Below the pieces are notes generated by a model that did not search any database, had not been told where the DNA came from, and saw only the letters and a list, made by a program, of their open reading frames with translations. The position numbers were made by a program, and so were the translations under genes. A stretch of 47,293 nucleotides of DNA, taken from NCBI GenBank assembly GCA_947472765.1, contig CANJCM010000032.1:1-47293 (forward strand), read 5' to 3'. The stretch comes from Opitutia bacterium (GTDB taxonomy: Bacteria; Verrucomicrobiota; Verrucomicrobiia; Opitutales; Opitutaceae). Shown piece after piece: positions 8,584-43,026 of this stretch. The stretch's first letter is position 1. Each line of letters opens with the position of its first letter.

Positions 8584-8654
8584 TGGAGGGCGGATGCCCT
8601 CATCCGCCGATCCTGAACGTTTTTCCTTCGGCCGGTGGGGGCACCGGCCCTCCA
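8584..8654. repeat. GGAG-REP pair (tetranucleotides facing outward)
   Basis: Plus copy 8584-8608: T-GGAG, stem GGCGGATG / CATCCGCC, loop CCCT. Minus copy 8630-8654: stem GGCCGGTG / CACCGGCC, loop GGGG, then CTCCA. The two copies use different but internally complementary stems. It lies directly upstream of the luciferase-like gene, whose reading frame stays open back to the ATG in this repeat. Confidence 0.88.
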
Positions 8655-15603: not shown

Positions 15604-15678
15604 TGGAGGGCCGGTGTCCCCACGGGCCGAAGACCGAACGGTGCGCCGTATTAGGCGGGTGAGGGCACCCGCCCTCCA
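15604..15678. repeat. GGAG-REP pair (tetranucleotides facing outward)
   Basis: Plus copy 15604-15628: T-GGAG, GGCCGGTG-TCCC-CACGGGCC, one mismatch in the stem. Minus copy 15654-15678: GGCGGGTG-AGGG-CACCCGCC then CTCCA. The gap 15389-15690 has no other feature. Confidence 0.87.
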
Positions 15679-24275: not shown

Positions 24276-24300
24276 GGCGGATGAGGGCATCCGCCCTCCA
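24276..24300 (-). repeat. single GGAG-REP
   Basis: Stem GGCGGATG / CATCCGCC, loop AGGG, then CTCCA. It begins 6 bp after the PPC gene stop and could stabilise the mRNA 3' end. Confidence 0.85.
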
Positions 24301-25960: not shown

Positions 25961-26038
25961 TGGAGGGCGGGTGCCCCCACCCGCCAAATGCCATCCTTTC
26001 TTCTTACCGCCCCGGCGGGTGAGGGCACCCGCCCTCCA
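25961..26038. repeat. GGAG-REP pair (tetranucleotides facing outward)
   Basis: Plus copy 25961-25985 (GGCGGGTG-CCCC-CACCCGCC after T-GGAG) and minus copy 26014-26038 (GGCGGGTG-AGGG-CACCCGCC then CTCCA). Lies between lysS and the LolC/E permease gene, starting 17 bp after the lysS stop. Confidence 0.9.
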
Positions 26039-30873: not shown

Positions 30874-33800
30874 TTGCTCGACGCGATGCCCGGCCCCGTG
30901 AAACCCCGTCGCCGCTCCTTTCTCCGGAGCCGGGGATTGCCATGGCTGGTGTTCGCCGCGGGCCTGGTGCTGACGTGGGTGCTCTGGTATCCGGTCATGC
31001 TGGAGCTCCAGCGGCAGGACGTGGCCCGGTTCGACCGACTGAAGGAACGGGTACTCAACGCCATCGATGCGCGGTTCAAGGCCGCCGAGCAGTCCCTTTA
31101 CGGCGGCCGGTCGTTGCTGGAGATGCCGGGCGATCTTCGTCCGGCCGACTGGACCCGTTACGTCGAGGGCGAATCCGCCTTCTTCGACTACGGCGTCGTG
31201 GGTCTCGGCTACATCGAATGCGTCCCGCGGGCGAACCTCGAGGCCGTCGAGACGAGAATCCGGGCGGGCGGCCTCCCGGAATTCACGGCGGAGCGCGCCG
31301 GGCAGGAGCCGCTCCTCTATCTGGTCACTTTGATCGAACCCGCGGCGCGCAACCGGGCGGCGCTCGGGAAGGACATCGGGGCCGGCACCACGCGCCGTTC
31401 CGCGGCCGAGCAGGCGATGCGGGCCGGCGTGCCGATCATTTCGCGGCGGCTCAATCTCATCGAAGGGACGGAAAACGTTCCCGGCTGCCTGCTCTTCCTG
31501 CCGGTCTACGACCTGACGATCCCGCTGACCGATGTTGCCGCCCGCGAACGTGCCCTGCAGGGCTGGGTCTATGCCTTGCTGCGGGTCGATCTGCTGCTCC
31601 AAAACGTCGCGGCCGCGGCCGATGGCCAGGTGGAGTTCGAGGCCTTTGAAGGTCGCGAGGCGACGGCGGAGACGCTGCTGTTCGACTCGGACAAGCAGCT
31701 GCATTTTCAGGATGGCGCGTGGGAGGCCGCGAGTGCGGCGGATTCGGAGGCCCTGACGACGACGATGGAGGTGCCGGTGTTTGGCCGGACCTGGACGTTG
31801 CGGATGCGAACGGGATCCTCCTTCGGCGAGCGTGGCAACCAGGCGCTTTCGACCTTCCTGCTCGCGGGGGGCGTGTTGATGAGCCTGTTCGGGGCGGGAT
31901 TCACGTGGACGCTGGTCAGTGCCCGCGGCCGGGCGCTAAAGCTGGCCGAGGGTATGACGGCGGATCTCCGCCAGGCCCAGGCCGAAGCCAGCCGGCTTGC
32001 GCTTGTGGCCAGCCGCACCGCCAACGTCGCCGTGATTGCCGACGCCGACTGGAGGATCGAATGGGTCAACGACAGTTTCACCCGCTTTTTTGGCTTCACG
32101 TTCGAGGAAGTGCGCGGACGCCGGCCGGGAGAATTTCTCCACGGGCCCGACACGGATATGGGCACGCTGGCCCGGCTCAATGATGCCTGCGATCGCGGCG
32201 AGCCGTTCCGCGGCGAGATGCTGAACTACACCCGCACGCGGGAGCCCAAGTGGGTCGAACTCGACGTGCAGCCGCTGAAGGATCCGGCGGGAGCCGTGGT
32301 GGGCTTAGTGACGCTCCAGCTCGACATCACCGAGCGGAAGCGGATTCAGGCCGAGATTGTACAGAAGGAGGCGGAGTTCCGCTTCATGTTCGAGAGTGCG
32401 CCGGTCGGTCTCTCGTGGCTCTGGGTCGGAGCCGCGGGCGCGCGCCGCCGGCTGACGAATGAGGCGCACCTGTCGATCACGGGGTTGACCCGCGCTGCGA
32501 TGGACCAAGGCGAGCCCGATGCGGGCCGGTCCGTGACCCATCCCGGCGACTGGTCGGTGCAGAAGGATTGGCAGGCGAAGCTCGAGCGCGGGGAGATCGA
32601 TCGCTTTGCGATGCGGAAGCGCTTCCTCCGGGCGGGCCAGCCCGAGGTCTGGGCGGAACTTTCCGTGCGCCGTTTTCGTGATGCGGGCGGAGGCTATCAG
32701 GAGGTGTCGACACTGGTGGACATCACGCCGCTCCAGCGCGCGCAGGAGGAAATCGTGCGGCAGGAGGCGCAATTCCGGTTCATCTTCGAGGCCACGCCGA
32801 TTGGCATTTCGTGGCGACGCGTCACCAACGATGACCGGGAGCAGCGCTTGTTCAACCAGGCCCACCGCCGGCTGTGCGGACTATCGGGCGAGGAACTGGA
32901 GCACCCGGAGATTTTCCGGACGATCAGCGTGCCGGAGGAGTACGCCGTCCAGATGCAGCACTATGCCCGGCTGGTCTCCGGCGAGATCAACGATTTCTCA
33001 ATGGAGAAACGCTACCTGCTTCGCGACGGCAGCGTGAACTGGGTGCTGTTCCGGCAGCAGCGGCAGAATCATCCGGATGGGTTCGAGGAACTCACGACCC
33101 TCGTCGACATCAAGCAGCGCAAGCTGGCGGAGCAGGAGCTCGCGCAGGAGCAGGCGCGGTTCAGGTCGATCTTCGAGATCGTCCCGGTTGGCCTTTCCCT
33201 GTTCGTCATCGGCCGGCAGCAGACGACGCACCTGGTGAACTCGGCGCATGCCCGGATCACGGGCGTCCCGGTCGCGCAGCGCCTCAACACCGAGCTGTAT
33301 ATCGCGGCAACGCATCCCGAGGATCGGGCGCGGCAGGCGGAGCTCACCAGCCAGTTGCAGCGGGGCGAAATCGAACACTTCACCCTCGAGAAGCGTTACC
33401 TCCGGCCCGACGGCGAAGTGGTGTGGGCGCTCTTCACGGCCCGGATTGTGACCGATCCGATCACGGGCGAGCGTCAGCAAATCGGCTCGTTCTTCGACAT
33501 CACCGAGCTCAAGCGGCAGGCGGCCGAGCTGAAATCCGCCAAGGAAGCCGCGGAGGCCGCCAATCTCGCGAAGAGCCAGTTTCTCGCGATGATGAGCCAC
33601 GAAATCCGGACGCCGATGAACGGCGTGATCGGGATGACTTCGCTGTTGCTCGACTCGGCCCTGACCCGCGAGCAGCGCGACTACGTCGAGATCATCCGGC
33701 TCAGCGGCGACGGCCTGCTGACCATCATCAACGACATTCTCGACTTCTCCAAAATCGAATCCGGCCGGCTCGAGCTGGAGGCGGTGGAATTCAACCTGCG

Positions 33801-35112
33801 CGAGTGCATCGAGGAGACGCTCGACCTGCTGGCCCCCCGCGTGGCCGAGAAAGGCCTCGATCTGCTCTACGAGATTGGCGACGGGGCGCCGGGGCTCGTG
33901 CGCGGGGATCCGACGCGTCTCCGGCAGATTCTCGTCAATCTCCTTGGCAACGCCGTGAAGTTCACCGAGCGCGGCGAAGTGGTCCTGTCGCTCCGCTCCG
34001 AGTCGATCATCGACGGACGGGTCGAGCTGTTGTTTGCGGTGCGCGACACCGGGATCGGCATTCCCCCGGAAAGCATTTCGCGGCTGTTCCAGTCCTTCAG
34101 CCAGGTCGATGCCTCGACCACGCGGCGCTTCGGCGGCACCGGCCTCGGCCTCGTCATCAGCAAGCGGCTGGCCGAGATGATGCACGGGCGCATGTGGGTG
34201 GAGAGCGAAGTGGGGAAGGGATCGACGTTCTTCTTCACCGTTCTGGCCGCGCCGGTCGTGAGCAAGCCGCGGCCCTGGATGGGTGCGGTCCGGCCGCCGC
34301 TCGAGGGGCGCGCGCTGCTCGTCGTCGACGACAACGCGACCAACCGGCGCATTCTCACGGAGCTGGCCCGGGGCTGGGGCATGACGGTTCGCGCGGCGGA
34401 GTCCGGTGTCCAGGCCCTCGGCTGGCTGCAAGCAGGTGAACACTTTGACGTGGCGGTGCTCGACATGCAGATGCCCGACATGGACGGCTCGATGCTGGCC
34501 GAGGCGATTCGCAATCTTCCCCGTCCGAGTCCGCTTCCGCTGGTCCTGCTTTCGTCCATTGGTGCGCGCGAAGGTCTGGCTTCGGCGGGCCTCTTCAAGG
34601 CGATCCTCACCAAGCCGGCCAAACCGGATCAGCTCGTAGCCGCGCTCGGCACTGCGCTCCGGGCCGAGGCCGATCGCCAGGCCTCGGCGCATCCCTTCGC
34701 GCCGACGACCGTCCTCGTTCCGGCGCGATCGGAAAAGCTGCTGCTCGCCGAGGACAACGCGGTGAACCAGAAGGTCGGCCTCCTGCTGCTCAGCAAGCTC
34801 GGTTATCGCGCCGACGTCGCCGCGAACGGCAACGAGGCGCTCGAGGCGGTGGAACGCCAGAAGTACGACATCATCATCATGGATGTGCAGATGCCGGAGA
34901 TGGACGGGCTCGAGGCCTCACGGATTATCGTGGACCGGTGGCCCGACCGACGGCAGCGGCCCTGGATCATCGCGCTGACGGCCAACGCGATGACGGGCGA
35001 TCGCGAGGCGTGTCTCGCGGCTGGCATGGACGATTACATCAGCAAGCCGATCCGCACCGAGGAACTCGCCGCCGCGCTGGAGCGGGCCGCGGCCGCACGC
35101 GGGAAGGGTTGA
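30874..35112 (+). CDS. hybrid sensor histidine kinase: CHASE-type sensor, four PAS domains, HisKA-HATPase, two receiver domains
   Basis: 1412 residues. TM1 ~23-45, a periplasmic CHASE-like domain (~46-325), TM2 (~329-352), then four PAS domains (~372-495, 500-625, 628-755, 760-885; each ends in a VDIT/LDIT/FDIT-type motif such as LVTLQLDITERKR). The HisKA phospho-acceptor is His909 in MMSHEIRTPMNGVIG; HATPase ~1015-1130 with DTGIGIPPE and GGTGLGLVISKRL. Two receiver domains follow, with Asp1197 (VLDMQMPDMDG) and Asp1337 (IIMDVQMPEMDG). No Hpt domain or response-regulator gene is nearby. A GGGGGA lies 8 bp before the TTG at 30874, supporting that start over the ATG at 30886. Signal unknown. 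Confidence 0.92.
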   Translation: MLDAMPGPVKPRRRSFLRSRGLPWLVFAAGLVLTWVLWYPVMLELQRQDVARFDRLKERVLNAIDARFKAAEQSLYGGRSLLEMPGDLRPADWTRYVEGESAFFDYGVVGLGYIECVPRANLEAVETRIRAGGLPEFTAERAGQEPLLYLVTLIEPAARNRAALGKDIGAGTTRRSAAEQAMRAGVPIISRRLNLIEGTENVPGCLLFLPVYDLTIPLTDVAARERALQGWVYALLRVDLLLQNVAAAADGQVEFEAFEGREATAETLLFDSDKQLHFQDGAWEAASAADSEALTTTMEVPVFGRTWTLRMRTGSSFGERGNQALSTFLLAGGVLMSLFGAGFTWTLVSARGRALKLAEGMTADLRQAQAEASRLALVASRTANVAVIADADWRIEWVNDSFTRFFGFTFEEVRGRRPGEFLHGPDTDMGTLARLNDACDRGEPFRGEMLNYTRTREPKWVELDVQPLKDPAGAVVGLVTLQLDITERKRIQAEIVQKEAEFRFMFESAPVGLSWLWVGAAGARRRLTNEAHLSITGLTRAAMDQGEPDAGRSVTHPGDWSVQKDWQAKLERGEIDRFAMRKRFLRAGQPEVWAELSVRRFRDAGGGYQEVSTLVDITPLQRAQEEIVRQEAQFRFIFEATPIGISWRRVTNDDREQRLFNQAHRRLCGLSGEELEHPEIFRTISVPEEYAVQMQHYARLVSGEINDFSMEKRYLLRDGSVNWVLFRQQRQNHPDGFEELTTLVDIKQRKLAEQELAQEQARFRSIFEIVPVGLSLFVIGRQQTTHLVNSAHARITGVPVAQRLNTELYIAATHPEDRARQAELTSQLQRGEIEHFTLEKRYLRPDGEVVWALFTARIVTDPITGERQQIGSFFDITELKRQAAELKSAKEAAEAANLAKSQFLAMMSHEIRTPMNGVIGMTSLLLDSALTREQRDYVEIIRLSGDGLLTIINDILDFSKIESGRLELEAVEFNLRECIEETLDLLAPRVAEKGLDLLYEIGDGAPGLVRGDPTRLRQILVNLLGNAVKFTERGEVVLSLRSESIIDGRVELLFAVRDTGIGIPPESISRLFQSFSQVDASTTRRFGGTGLGLVISKRLAEMMHGRMWVESEVGKGSTFFFTVLAAPVVSKPRPWMGAVRPPLEGRALLVVDDNATNRRILTELARGWGMTVRAAESGVQALGWLQAGEHFDVAVLDMQMPDMDGSMLAEAIRNLPRPSPLPLVLLSSIGAREGLASAGLFKAILTKPAKPDQLVAALGTALRAEADRQASAHPFAPTTVLVPARSEKLLLAEDNAVNQKVGLLLLSKLGYRADVAANGNEALEAVERQKYDIIIMDVQMPEMDGLEASRIIVDRWPDRRQRPWIIALTANAMTGDREACLAAGMDDYISKPIRTEELAAALERAAAARGKG

Positions 35113-35116
35113 GCGA

Positions 35117-35355
35117 TGGAGGGCGGGTGTCCTCACCCGCTAGTTCAGGACGGTGAACAGATCGAAGAACCGAACGTCATGGACGGTGAGGGCACCGTCC
35201 CTCCATGGAAAAGAGCTTCGAGTTGGAGGGCGGGTGCCCACACCCGCCGTTTGAGCCGGCGAAGCGAACGCGCAAATCGTAAGCCTTGGACGGTGAGGGC
35301 ACCGTCCCTCCATGGGAAAGGTCTTCCACCTGGAGGGCGGGTGCCCACACCCGCC
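35117..35355. repeat. GGAG-REP array 1, alternating orientation, 107-bp period
   Basis: Five copies: + 35117-35141, - 35181-35205, + 35224-35248, - 35288-35312, + 35331-35355. Successive plus copies are 107 bp apart, as are the minus copies. Plus copies use stem GGCGGGTG / CACCCGC, minus copies GGACGGTG / CACCGTCC. Spacers are also related between units (long spacer with gACGGcGAA-like text, short spacer tggaaaagagcttcga). The array begins 5 bp after the kinase stop and ends 22 bp before the RAYT stop. Confidence 0.93.
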
Positions 35356-35377
35356 ATTTCCAGACGGCACAGCCTTT

Positions 35378-35830
35378 TCAGTATCTCAGGTCATGAATCA
35401 CTCCCTGCCAGGGCCAGTCTTCCGGAAGTTGGACAAGACCTGCCCGGACGGGGTTGTGCCGCACATACTCCCATTTTTCTGCGTAGCTCGCGGCTGACCG
35501 CACGAAGTGATCGAAGTACCCGCGTTGCCACACCGGCGGCGACACGCTGGCGAAGCGAGCGATGCCGCGCGCCGAAATCGATTTCCACGACTTGTGCCAT
35601 TCGGAGCAGGCAAGGGCGTCCCGGGCCGGCCGCGCGAAGAGATGAACATGATCCGGCATGATTAGGTAGCGGCCGACGAACCATCCGTCGTGCTCAGCCG
35701 ACCGCAACCAGATCGTCTTTAGCAATTCGCTCGTGTGCGGATCGGCGAGAACCGGACGCCGGCCATCCGTGCATACCGTCAAAAAATACAGCGGATTTTT
35801 CGCGTACGGACGAAGATGAGGGAGCTGCAT
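35378..35830 (-). CDS. REP-associated tyrosine transposase (RAYT, Y1 HUH family)
   Basis: 150 residues from the ATG at 35830. Y1-transposase fold: N-terminal YFLTVCTDGRRPVL, the HUH metal motif in LIMPDHVHLFARP (~65-75), and the RAYT block WQRGYFDHFVRSAASYAEKW with the probable catalytic Tyr in GYFDH, then EYVRHNPVRAGLV and LPEDWPWQG. RAYTs nick DNA at REP hairpins bearing a conserved 5' tetranucleotide. The open frame continues upstream to a REP ATG (36004) but that part is repeat-derived. It lies on the minus strand between two arrays of GGAG-REPs, the likely substrate. The fold and motifs look intact, so it may be active. Confidence 0.9.
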   Translation of the reverse strand: MQLPHLRPYAKNPLYFLTVCTDGRRPVLADPHTSELLKTIWLRSAEHDGWFVGRYLIMPDHVHLFARPARDALACSEWHKSWKSISARGIARFASVSPPVWQRGYFDHFVRSAASYAEKWEYVRHNPVRAGLVQLPEDWPWQGVIHDLRY

Positions 35831-35914
35831 CACGGAAGCCGGGCGAAATAGTGCAGCCGAAGCGCGTTTCGTTTTATCCCAATTTAAGGGGCACGGAATC
35901 CGCCTAGCCACCGA

Positions 35915-36110
35915 TGGAGGGCGGGTGCCCTCACCCGCTGTCTCGAGACGGTGAAGGGACGGATGAGTCTTACGCCGTGGACGGTGGGGGCACCGTCCCT
36001 CCATGGAAAAGAGCCTCGAGATGGAGGGCGGGTGCCCACACCCGCCGGATCAAGACGGCGAAGCGGTTTCGAAAAGCATCTGGCTTGGATGGTCGGACAC
36101 CGTCCCTCCA
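35915..36110. repeat. GGAG-REP array 2, 107-bp period
   Basis: Copies: + 35915-35939, - 35979-36003, + 36022-36046, - 36087-36110 (degenerate, one base lost in the stem). Plus-to-plus distance is 107 bp, the same as in array 1, with matching spacers (gagacggtgaag..., tggaaaagagcctcga). It ends 5 bp before the hemA stop codon. Together with array 1 it brackets the RAYT gene in the same orientation. Confidence 0.9.
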
Positions 36111-36114
36111 CCCG

Positions 36115-37215
36115 CTACCCACGCGGCGCGGCGACCGCATCCCCTGCCGGGCCTTCCTCGGAAACCGGCCGCTGCTGGGCGAGCGCTTCCACTTGCGCCG
36201 CCACCTGTCGCCAAAGCGCGTCCGCCTTCTCGTTCACGATCGCCCGACACTTCGCGATCTCGGCCTCGCGGGCTGCGCGATTTTCCTCCGCGATCTTCGC
36301 GAGATCATCGAGATTGTAGAGAAAGACGTTCTCGATCCCGCCCACTGCCGGATCCACATCGCGCGGCAGGGCCTGGTCGATGAAGAACAGCGGCTGCGCC
36401 GGCCGGCGCTGCATCGCCGCGTGCACCTCGGACTGGGTGATGACGACATCGGGCGCCGAGGTCGCGCAGACCACGATATCGAACTCCGCCAGCCGGGCCT
36501 CGCGCTGCTCGAAGGGCATCGCACTGGCGCCGAGAGCGGTCGCGAGTTCCATCGCGCGTTCGAACCGGCGGCTGGCCACCGTCACGGTGGCGGCACCGCG
36601 GCTAACGAAGGCCTTCGCCGTCTTCTCGCCGATCTCACCGGCCCCGAGGAGTAGAATCCGGGTTTCCTTCAGGCTGCCGTAGATGGTCAGCGCGAGATCG
36701 ACCGCGACATTCGCGACGCTGACCTGGCCCTCGGTGATCGCGGTGTGCGTGCGGACGTGCTTCGCGGCCTGAAAGCCTTTTTGAAAAACACGATTCAGGA
36801 TTGGACCGGTGGACCCGCGCGCCTGGGCATTCGCATAGGCGTCCTTCACCTGGCCGAAAATCTCGGTTTCGCCGAGCATCTGGGAATCGAGCCCCGCGGA
36901 CACTTCCAGCAGGTGCTGCACGGCGGCGCGCCCATGCAGCGCCAGCCGGATGCGCTCGAACTCGGCGGGGTCGAAACGCTGCTTCGCGCAGAAGGCGGCG
37001 GTGATTCGCGCCACCGCGTCCGGGGTCGAGGCCACCCCGTAAAACTCGACGCGATTGCAGGTGTTGAGCACCGCGTATTCCTTCAGACCCGGGAGGCCCG
37101 AGAGTTCCGCCTGCATCGCCGCCAGCGTCTCGCTCGAGAGCGAAAGCTTCTCGCGCACCTCGAGGGCGGCGCGGTGATGCGTGGCGCCGAGAACAAAGAA
37201 ACCGTCCGCGCTCAT
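36115..37215 (-). CDS. hemA: glutamyl-tRNA reductase
   Basis: 366 residues from the ATG at 37215. FVLGATHHRAALEVREKLSL, then the catalytic Cys53 in AVLNTCNRVEFYG, LDSQMLGETEIFGQVKDAY, the NADP-binding ILLLGAGEIGEKTAKAFVSR with TVASRR, and a C-terminal helical dimerisation domain. Reduces Glu-tRNA to glutamate-1-semialdehyde, the first committed step of C5-pathway tetrapyrrole synthesis. The open frame extends upstream into the CcsA/HemX-like gene in another frame. The last ~20 residues (PVSEEGPAGDAVAAPRG) are low-complexity. The start overlaps the stop of the preceding gene by 4 bp. Confidence 0.95.
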   Translation of the reverse strand: MSADGFFVLGATHHRAALEVREKLSLSSETLAAMQAELSGLPGLKEYAVLNTCNRVEFYGVASTPDAVARITAAFCAKQRFDPAEFERIRLALHGRAAVQHLLEVSAGLDSQMLGETEIFGQVKDAYANAQARGSTGPILNRVFQKGFQAAKHVRTHTAITEGQVSVANVAVDLALTIYGSLKETRILLLGAGEIGEKTAKAFVSRGAATVTVASRRFERAMELATALGASAMPFEQREARLAEFDIVVCATSAPDVVITQSEVHAAMQRRPAQPLFFIDQALPRDVDPAVGGIENVFLYNLDDLAKIAEENRAAREAEIAKCRAIVNEKADALWRQVAAQVEALAQQRPVSEEGPAGDAVAAPRG

Positions 37216-38060
37216 CGACGATCCGTTTCCGCCGCCGTGGGCGACACGTCGTGACGGCTGCCATCGACCGGCCCGAGCGACAACAGGGCGGCGAGGAAAA
37301 GCGTGAGGCTGGCCCAGGCGAACCGCTGCGCGAGCAGCCAGCCGCGGAGCCGCAGGCCGAGCACCGCCGTGTAGCAGAACCACACGGCCACGGTGGCGAG
37401 GAGCTTGGTCAGGTTGACGGTCGACATGTCGCGCAACCAGTAGACCGAACCCACCGCCAGCGAGGCCGCGAGGATGGCGACGCCCAGCGCCAGCAGCCGG
37501 ACGCCCATGTGGTCCAAATCGAGAATCGACGGGAGAAACGTGTTCCACCCGCCAAAGTGCTTCTGCTTGAGCGAGCGGTTCCGCAGCAGAAACAAAACCG
37601 ACGTCAGCGCCAGCAGGGCGAAGATGCCGTAACTGAAAACCGCGAGCGCCGCGTGGAGTTCGATCCACGGATTGTCGCCGAAGATGTGGCGCCGAATCTC
37701 CGCGTCCCAGCCCGGGATCGACAGCGAGACGAGCGTCAGGGCCGCCGCGAGGCAGGACGAGAAGTAGCCCAGCAGGCTTTGGCGAAAATTCACCCCGACC
37801 ATCAAGTAGAGGGTAATCGCGGACCACGCCGTGAACTGGCAGAGCTCCAGCGTGTTCCCGAGCGGGCAGCCGCCGACGACGCGTCCGCGGGCGCCGAGTC
37901 CGATGAGCTGCAGGACATAACCCGCCGCGATCAGCCCATACGTGGCCGCGCCTCCGGGGCCGCCGTGCCGCAACAGCGACACGGTGCCCTGCACGAACCC
38001 GACCAGATACAACGCCGCGGCGGCCCAGAGCCAGGTGCGGTCGGTGAAGGCGTCGAACAT
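37212..38060 (-). CDS. cytochrome c assembly (CcsA/HemX-like) membrane protein
   Basis: 282 residues with about eight hydrophobic helices, start MFDAFTDRTWLWAAAALYLV. The segment PWIELHAALAVFSYGIFALLA carries the conserved His of the CcsA/HemX family (PF01578 type), and the GGCPLGNTLELCQFTAW segment corresponds to the other conserved block. CcsA moves or presents heme for cytochrome c maturation; HemX modulates HemA levels in some bacteria. The ATGA overlap with hemA (TCAT at 37212-37215) implies translational coupling and supports a HemX-type role, though CcsA activity is equally possible. Confidence 0.88.
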   Translation of the reverse strand: MFDAFTDRTWLWAAAALYLVGFVQGTVSLLRHGGPGGAATYGLIAAGYVLQLIGLGARGRVVGGCPLGNTLELCQFTAWSAITLYLMVGVNFRQSLLGYFSSCLAAALTLVSLSIPGWDAEIRRHIFGDNPWIELHAALAVFSYGIFALLALTSVLFLLRNRSLKQKHFGGWNTFLPSILDLDHMGVRLLALGVAILAASLAVGSVYWLRDMSTVNLTKLLATVAVWFCYTAVLGLRLRGWLLAQRFAWASLTLFLAALLSLGPVDGSRHDVSPTAAETDRR

Positions 38061-39566: not shown

Positions 39567-39883
39567 GCTCTTCGTCGCAGACATACCCCGCCCGGCGGGC
39601 ATCCCTCTCGAGCCGGAACGATAAAGTGGAAAGAAACCGGCGGGTGTGGGCACCCGCCCTCCATGGTCGGAGGACTTTTCTCACGACCGACGTTTCTCCT
39701 CTGATAGAGCAATCAATGGAGGGACGGTGCCCTCACCGTCCAGGTCGGTATCATGTCCGACTGAACGTTCACCGATTGGTGTCGGACCGGCGCTCGTCGC
39801 CGGGGTGTGTTGATTGTTCCGCCGGCAGATTGACGCTGCCAGTCGCCTCCAATCGAAAATCGAGAATCCAAAATCCAAAATAA
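39567..39883. repeat. mosaic repeat block 1 with an inward-facing GGAG-REP pair
   Basis: In order: ccccgcccggcgggcatccc then ctcgagccggaacgat (39585-39621); minus GGAG-REP 39639-39663; spacer ending gagcaatcaa; plus GGAG-REP 39717-39741 (stem GGACGGTG); gaacgttcaccgattggtgt then a decayed GTAG-D hairpin (39783-39806); and an aatcgaaaatcgagaatcc tail (39852-39870). The same order of parts recurs at 42680-43026. No gene seen. Confidence 0.78.
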
Positions 39884-42660: not shown

Positions 42661-43026
42661 GGTAGGGTCAGACCGGAGTCGACCCAGCGAGCGACACCCC
42701 CCGCCCTTCGGGCACCCATTAAGGATTGGTTTTGCGACGCGCTTGGGCGCATCGCGAGATCCGGCGTGAGTGCCGCTCCGCTCGGCACTCGAGCCGGAAT
42801 CATGCCGTGGAATGAAATCGGCGGGTGAGGGCACCCGCCCTGCAAAGCAGGAGGATCGTTCGGAGTTCCGGTCGTTCTTCTCACAAAGAGCAATCCATGG
42901 AGGGACGGTGCCCTCACCGTCCACGGCCGCCTAACGTGCGACGGAACGTCCACCGGATCGGTGTAGGGCCCGGCGTTCGCCGCCGGGCCCAATCGGAAAT
43001 CGAGAATCGGAGAATCGAAAATTCCC
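42661..43026. repeat. mosaic repeat block 2 with an inward-facing GGAG-REP pair
   Basis: Parts in order: ccgcccttcgggcacccatt and gggcgcatcgcgagatccgg (42701-42768); ctcgagccggaatcat (42788-42804); minus GGAG-REP 42820-42844; spacer ending agagcaatcca; plus GGAG-REP 42898-42922; gtccaccggatcggt then GTAG-D 42963-42990 (GTAG, GGCCCGGCG-TTCGC-CGCCGGGCC, perfect 9-bp stem); and an aatcggaaatcgagaatcgg tail. Same order as 39567-39883. No gene seen. Confidence 0.8.

Follow-up and report, generated by a model that had tools for sequence, protein, structure and literature searches.

A RAYT gene between GGAG-headed REP arrays in an Opitutaceae genome: a probable guide variant of the REPtron

The window analysed here, a 47,293-nt stretch that belongs to a 4.97-Mb, 157-contig assembly, contains a RAYT (TnpAREP) gene lying between two arrays of REP hairpins whose 5' head is GGAG. 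We consider it likely that gene and hairpins together form a RAYT/REP system, or REPtron, of a GGAG-guide variant, working by the mechanism set out below. The system type itself is known; what is new is that the head does not conform to GT[AG]G, the definition in print, and that its second base covaries with residue 109 of the RAYT. Gene and arrays fill the 1002-bp gap between two convergent genes, one for a hybrid histidine kinase and the other hemA (Table 1); the kinase stop codon is 4 bp before the first REP and the hemA stop codon 4 bp past the last.

Two stems alternate at the locus, type A on the plus strand and type B on the minus strand. An earlier note on this DNA had counted nine flanking GGAG-REPs; eight are perfect TGGAG hairpins with a 7-8-bp stem and a 4-nt loop that fold as expected, but in the ninth the folding of the 8-bp stem has been lost. 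Each of 500 dinucleotide shuffles yielded no TGGAG hairpin, as against the eight real ones, and an Rfam search of the window gave no match at the gathering score. The same note described both arrays as built of a 107-bp unit, and that spacing does recur (start-to-start distances of 107, 691 and 107), but the units have diverged: they share 77/115 to 89/108 letters with one another, the partial unit adjoining the RAYT gene shares 70/118 to 78/120 with them, and Tandem Repeats Finder detected no tandem repeat in the locus at score 40. Judging from this low identity and the empty search, the arrays appear to be old and diverged. The RAYT stop codon had been placed in a unit-like spacer; the stretch between the third REP and that stop is as similar to the other spacers as these are to one another (22-27 of 41-45 aligned letters). 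The opening unit of the left array has its closest match in the first unit of the right array (89/108, versus 82/109 with its own neighbour), which is a mild hint that the array was duplicated around the RAYT gene. Close A/B pairs, with their heads inside and 10-40 bp apart, occur three times in the assembly, always within the RAYT arrays, and the 107-bp unit is private to the RAYT locus within the assembly.

Table 1. Genes and REPs of the window
Feature	Position	Strand	Head or site	Details
CHASE/PAS hybrid histidine kinase gene	30949..35112	+		receiver domains; left neighbour; Pfam
A-type REP	35117..35141	+	35117(+)	TGGAGG GCGGGTG tcct CACCCGC; 7-bp stem
B-type REP	35181..35205	-	35205(-)	TGGAG GGACGGTG ccct CACCGTCC
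A-type REP	35224..35248	+	35224(+)	TGGAG GGCGGGTG ccca CACCCGCC
B-type REP	35288..35312	-	35312(-)	
A-type REP	35331..35355	+	35331(+)	22 bp from RAYT stop codon
RAYT (TnpAREP) gene	35378..35830	-		ATG at 35830, 150 codons, stop 35378-35380
A-type REP	35915..35939	+	35915(+)	upstream side of RAYT gene; 7-bp stem
B-type REP	35979..36003	-	36003(-)	
A-type REP	36022..36046	+	36022(+)	
B-type REP, degraded	36086..36110	-	36110(-)	head intact, stem broken
Glutamyl-tRNA reductase gene (hemA)	36115..37218	-		right neighbour, convergent; Pfam
Dispersed REP pair	8584..8654		8584/8654	GGCGGATG / C type; heads outside
Dispersed C/A REP pair	15605..15678		15605/15678	heads outside
Dispersed single REP	24276..24300	-	24300	GGCGGATG stem
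Dispersed A/A REP pair	25961..26038		25961/26038	sole homotypic pair of the 847-kb sample
Dispersed composite element copy	39604..39810		39663/39717	A(-) + B(+); heads inside, 56 bp apart
Dispersed single B-type REP	42898..42922	+	42898	

The protein is a genuine RAYT, as the earlier note had recognised. Its 150-residue open reading frame is confirmed; it scores 99.6 bits against the NCBIfam RAYT/TnpAREP equivalog NF047646 (cutoff 80), matches PF01797 (Y1_Tnp) in Pfam, and has the same best PDB match by sequence (1e-8) and by fold (TM 0.72, AlphaFold2 model), namely 4er8, the E. coli TnpAREP with its REP hairpin bound. The model (pLDDT 91.6) was built from an alignment of the window protein and 29 relatives, and across these 30 rows H61, H63, Y122, W101, D107 and R111 are invariant and Q102 nearly so. 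The HUH motif that had been called is there, as H61-V-H63, but the catalytic tyrosine is not the one in GYFDH: by alignment to 4er8 it is Y122 (KWEYVRHNP), in helix 113-124 of the model, after beta4, and Tyr 105 is neither an invariant nor a near-invariant column. The guide-contact region comprises W101, Q102, D107, H108, F109 and R111. W94, Q95, E100, H101 and R104 of E. coli TnpAREP, which align with W101, Q102, D107, H108 and R111, are discussed as guide contacts in the text available to us of PMC6006769 and PMC8266576. The equivalog score, the HUH, Tyr and W/Q/D/R residues and the inverted, genome-dispersed REPs on either side together characterise a RAYT. TnpA of IS200/IS605 shares the HUH/Y1 fold and hairpin recognition with a guide tetranucleotide, but the window protein reaches only 33.2 bits against the model for that family (NF033573, cutoff 55) and is encoded by one gene copy at 1e-20.

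This is the one RAYT of its type in its own genome at that threshold; the other PF01797 proteins are remote. Five of them (L001-L005) are longer, with open frames of 307-371 aa, and have FQAE where RAYTs have WQDR (positions 101, 102, 107 and 111); four of the five have no REP head call nearby, and in L004 and L005 copies of the gene's 3' end adjoin the gene. A second RAYT-like protein, L007, has HL at positions 108-109 and three GTGG-headed hairpins; with it, two guide classes may coexist in this genome. The GC3 of the window's RAYT gene is 0.70, compared with 0.83 +- 0.04 in 594 predicted genes, 1.3% of which are equally low or lower. Such a value points to codon use that is foreign or relaxed; the gene, being atypical in this way, may have been acquired recently, and another RAYT may account for part of the several hundred REPs.

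The REPs are not confined to the RAYT locus. Our genome sample consisted of the window and 40 stretches of 20 kb (847,293 bases) and held 487 perfect hairpins with an 8-bp stem and a 4-nt loop; GGAG was the commonest of all tetranucleotides preceding them (85 cases), with GTGG at 55 and GTAG at 38. The GGAG hairpins have only four stems, A (36), B (26), C (GGCCGGTG, 21) and GGCGGATG (2). Across the whole assembly there are 154 exact copies of A, 140 of B and 119 of C with at most one mismatch, and the reversed-pattern controls gave 0 each. A count of 314 for the A pattern at two mismatches was dropped, since it takes in the C type, which has exactly two differences; the exact 154 is used instead. 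C-type REPs, although numerous in the genome, are missing from the RAYT locus. The six other sites in the window at which the earlier note had seen REPs are all present (Table 1). Its suggestion of local spread does not hold: the REPs are genome-wide, and only the closely spaced A/B pair in the 107-bp unit is local. The outcome it had named as damaging, hairpins absent or random elsewhere, is the opposite of these counts.

The REPs come in inverted pairs, as the units of BIMEs or REPINs do: 43 neighbours within 150 bp in the sample are on opposite strands and one on the same strand. Where both partners of an opposite-strand pair could be typed, A is joined to B or C in 40 of 41 cases (p 2e-11 against one half expected). 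The fairer figure is 14 of 15 (p 5e-4), from which the RAYT arrays and a composite repeat are removed, because copies of the composite share descent. The core of this repeat has 79 copies in the assembly. Most other A/B pairs of the sample lie within it, about 56 bp apart in a longer conserved context; 21 pairs whose heads face inwards at a distance of 40-66 bp, including a few that are not A/B, were aligned. The composite repeat is a mosaic of two REP families; many copies have a GTAG-headed hairpin pair (GTAGGGCCGGCGC...GCCGGGCC) after the A/B GGAG pair.

The REPs are short stem-loops in more than 100 copies and are extragenic, as REPs elsewhere are. Only four of 62 clusters in the sample fall in predicted genes; of the rest, 22 occupy convergent gaps, 29 tandem gaps and 3 divergent gaps, and 4 are at stretch edges. 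Gap length alone would place about 11, 32 and 12 of 54 in the three kinds of gap (convergent excess, p 5e-4); the gene calls behind these figures came from a crude codon-usage script that overlooked the RAYT itself. The REPs thus favour convergent gene ends and avoid divergent gaps. Such a bias would also suit host elements, terminators or stabilisers of mRNA 3' ends, in which case the RAYT would be a domesticated or dying passenger and the arrays products of slippage or recombination; array limits so close to both neighbouring stop codons and the old, diverged units would be in keeping with that. We regard this as improbable: a selected host function leaves unexplained why the exact A-type REP is absent from the six other congeners searched and present alongside a near RAYT, and why the head covaries with a RAYT residue. 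Dispersal through the RAYT is the reading that we prefer.

The distribution of gene and REP in the family bears on the same question. The nearest named relatives of the RAYT are from Opitutia/Opitutus MAGs, which points to a host of the Opitutaceae kind. Of 150 family genomes, a draw from a larger group, 44 have a RAYT at E<=1e-20, our own included. The exact A-type REP was found in three of the 150, with 154 copies in our genome, 6 in G109 and 1 in G022, and in none of the six other congeners in the same search. G109 has the closest RAYT (61% identical), flanked by two of its six A-type REPs; G022 gives no RAYT match at 1e-20. The earlier note would have been troubled by identical arrays in relatives that lack a RAYT; among the 149 other genomes the closest approach to this is the single copy in G022.

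We also compared the site itself. hemA is present in all 27 genomes of the genus, ours among them, and 20 hemA loci (our own and 19 others) were examined. A match to the kinase C-terminus lies convergent beside hemA in 11 of the others, orthology within this large kinase family being judged by 50-69% identity and position (40 residues only in L309); the remaining 8 have no kinase match and are uninformative on the gap. tblastn (E<=1e-6) gave no RAYT match at any of the 19, and the gaps in the 11 congeners measure 97, 89, 42, 137, 232, 192, 21, 195, 87, 692 and 0 bp, as against 1002 bp. As a simpler reading than repeated loss, these comparisons suggest that the RAYT cassette was gained in the window's lineage. 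In one congener (G331, locus L308) the gap lacks a RAYT but contains a pair of GT-type REPs (GCGGGGTG stem), and this gap is perhaps a recurrent landing site.

The earlier note had envisaged a gene either inserted into, or amplified with, its array. Co-amplification around the gene fits, because the whole cassette stands in a gap that is RAYT-less in 11 congeners and close A/B pairs are found only there. Insertion would make the RAYT gene an IS-like element that transposed itself into an existing REP array, the arrays being its target, not its product. The short gap in congeners, one of them with REPs at the site and no RAYT, shows that REPs can sit there on their own. Nevertheless, we find this reading hard to favour, since the genome has a single RAYT of this type, with only remote PF01797 proteins besides, and the close A/B pair occurs nowhere else in the assembly, leaving no known free array as target. 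On our preferred reading, the RAYT most likely arrived in this lineage together with REPs, would have stayed put in the kinase/hemA gap, and would have seen 107-bp arrays grow only at its own locus.

Head classes were called by script within 500 bp on each side of the RAYT in a discovery set of 110 loci (80 + 30; 105 distinct). Forty had GG[AG]G heads, 42 GT[AG]G heads, 2 were ambiguous and 21 had none. By NCBI phylum label, the named loci with GG heads belong to Verrucomicrobiota (20), Kiritimatiellota (4), Lentisphaerota (4), Planctomycetota (2), Latescibacterota (2), Fermentibacterota (1) and Fidelibacterota (1), with two unplaced; these seven phylum labels are to be read with the caution that the loci are mostly from MAGs and that labels occurring once may reflect binning errors. 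Of the protein's 150 positions, none predicts head base 2 as well as residue 109: A, V, I, L or S goes with GT and Q, E, F or Y with GG, which is right in 76 of 77 discovery rows (6 short rows dropped; near-identical rows are L048-L050 with L052 and L093 with L094), the exception being L100. Columns 15 and 108 predict the base nearly as well. Residue 15 is in beta1 and residue 109 in beta4 (106-110) of the model, and beta1 and beta4 are the regions where guide contacts are reported in what we could consult of PMC6006769 and PMC8266576.

A second set comprised 117 loci (30, a further 80 listed places taken mostly by score order with some omitted, and the 7 PF01797 loci of our own genome), of which 106 were left after removal of 9 discovery duplicates and 2 near-copies; 36 of these had both a prediction and a head call. 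Residue 109 was right in 32 of the 36, and in 27 of the 30 in which the winning class had two or more hairpins. Before a stricter check, in which the discovery repeats L205, L216 and L280 and the near-copies L246 and L003 were removed, the figure was 36 of 40 on 111 loci, which is the same rate within error. The misses are L242 (HL, 2 GGAG), L275 (RL, 11 GGAG), and two loci, L252 and L292, whose heads were weakly called; every one of the 13 HR rows for which a head was called has GT. A combined table gives 109 of 111, which is flattering: R with H108 was set as GT after the second set, three duplicate rows were kept, and the score limit of 85 excluded L275 (score 72), a clear exception.

The association of head base 2 with residue 109 may be due to shared ancestry only, with the base read by other parts of the RAYT or by none, and we give this reading considerable weight, while stopping short of calling it probable. 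The RAYT trees show no more than 3 to 5 switches of head base 2, the combined tree of 171 rows about 5, so the association does not amount to evidence gained many times independently; sign tests on independent pairs (3-5 pairs) gave no significance, and columns 15 and 108 do nearly as well as 109. Against ancestry, the top columns coincide with regions in which guide contacts are reported, head and residue switch together in the window's own clade (HF, RF and RY with GG heads; HI and HL, in L120, L122, L124 and L125, with GT), and most second-set predictions were right. A guide code at residue 109 is therefore a lead, not proof. A further pattern concerns strand: in 60 of 72 RAYT loci no stem is shared between the two strands (on shuffling, 16.4 loci on average and 27 at most). 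This is only a hint that the polarity of the two REP types is fixed relative to the RAYT gene, as tandem duplication of a pair gives a like picture and a few loci may be duplicates. We put forward tentatively, as a proposal that may well prove wrong, that a GGxG class, missed by GT[AG]G searches, is about as common as GTxG in Verrucomicrobiota and their kin; that the protein sets guide base 2 through residues 108-109 (E. coli H101-A102), aliphatic residues or HR specifying T, and Q/E or F/Y specifying G; and that, in each system, strand relative to the RAYT gene fixes the two REP types, which serve as separate left and right ends.

We propose that the window's RAYT is an HUH/Y1 nuclease for which the most likely course of action is to bind the TGGAG hairpin in single-stranded form, take GGAG at its 5' foot as the guide, cut nearby through Y122 and then rejoin the ends. 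Guide base 2, G rather than T, would be read partly by the beta4 stretch that holds residues 108-109. REP pairs, A with B or C in opposite orientation, would be copied in this way to extragenic sites, mainly not between divergent genes. In the available text of PMC8266576, CT sites are proposed to be chosen via A3G4 of GTAG. GGAG retains A3G4 and cleavage at CT is therefore predicted, yet no conserved CT or other cleavage dinucleotide was seen at a fixed place beside the REPs, where only the T preceding GGAG is nearly invariant.

Comparison with known systems places the locus close to, but outside, what is in print. E. coli REPs have a GTAG head, whereas those of the window have GGAG, a perfect 7-8-bp stem, a 4-nt loop and no bulge; residues 160-161 in the tail of E. 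coli TnpAREP have no counterpart in the window protein, which ends at 150. Group 3 REPtrons (Stenotrophomonas Sm, Marinomonas Mb) likewise have a perfect, short hairpin next to the tetranucleotide or not far from it, but with a GTAG guide and other loops, according to the available text of PMC8266576; the likeness noted is that of the hairpin. The TnpAREP experiments described there used GTAG systems. RAYTs with BIMEs on both sides are already known (PMC2817692, as far as its text was available). The earlier note had thought a GGAG pair in this lineage perhaps undescribed. The head is indeed beyond the definitions that we could consult: the search rule of PMC6006769 requires 5' GTAG or GTGG, which the locus's GGAG REPs do not have, and PMC3733652 adds GYAG, GYRG, GTRG and GTMG. 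GGAG as a REP head occurs 0 times in the main texts of PMC3733652, PMC2817692 and PMC12306157, while their figures, PMC5581495 and PMC3333891 could mention it. The bacterial group, however, is not new to such repeats, since GT-type REPs are described from Opitutus terrae in the portions of PMC3733652 that we drew on. Like the window's REPs, these GTAG-20 REPs and other repeats of Verrucomicrobia have a high copy number; their heads are reported as GTAG, with the mutated form GTGG in the majority of O. terrae GTAG-20 copies, as against GGAG here.

If the guide classes hold, nature supplies RAYTs with GG and GT guides that are one or two residues apart beside reported contacts, which would permit a direct swap experiment. 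The finding bears on how TnpAREP picks its guide and on how REPs multiply. REP surveys that require GT[AG]G would miss a sizeable class, an example being the GGAG type of Chthoniobacter flavus Ellin428 (L059), a cultured strain.
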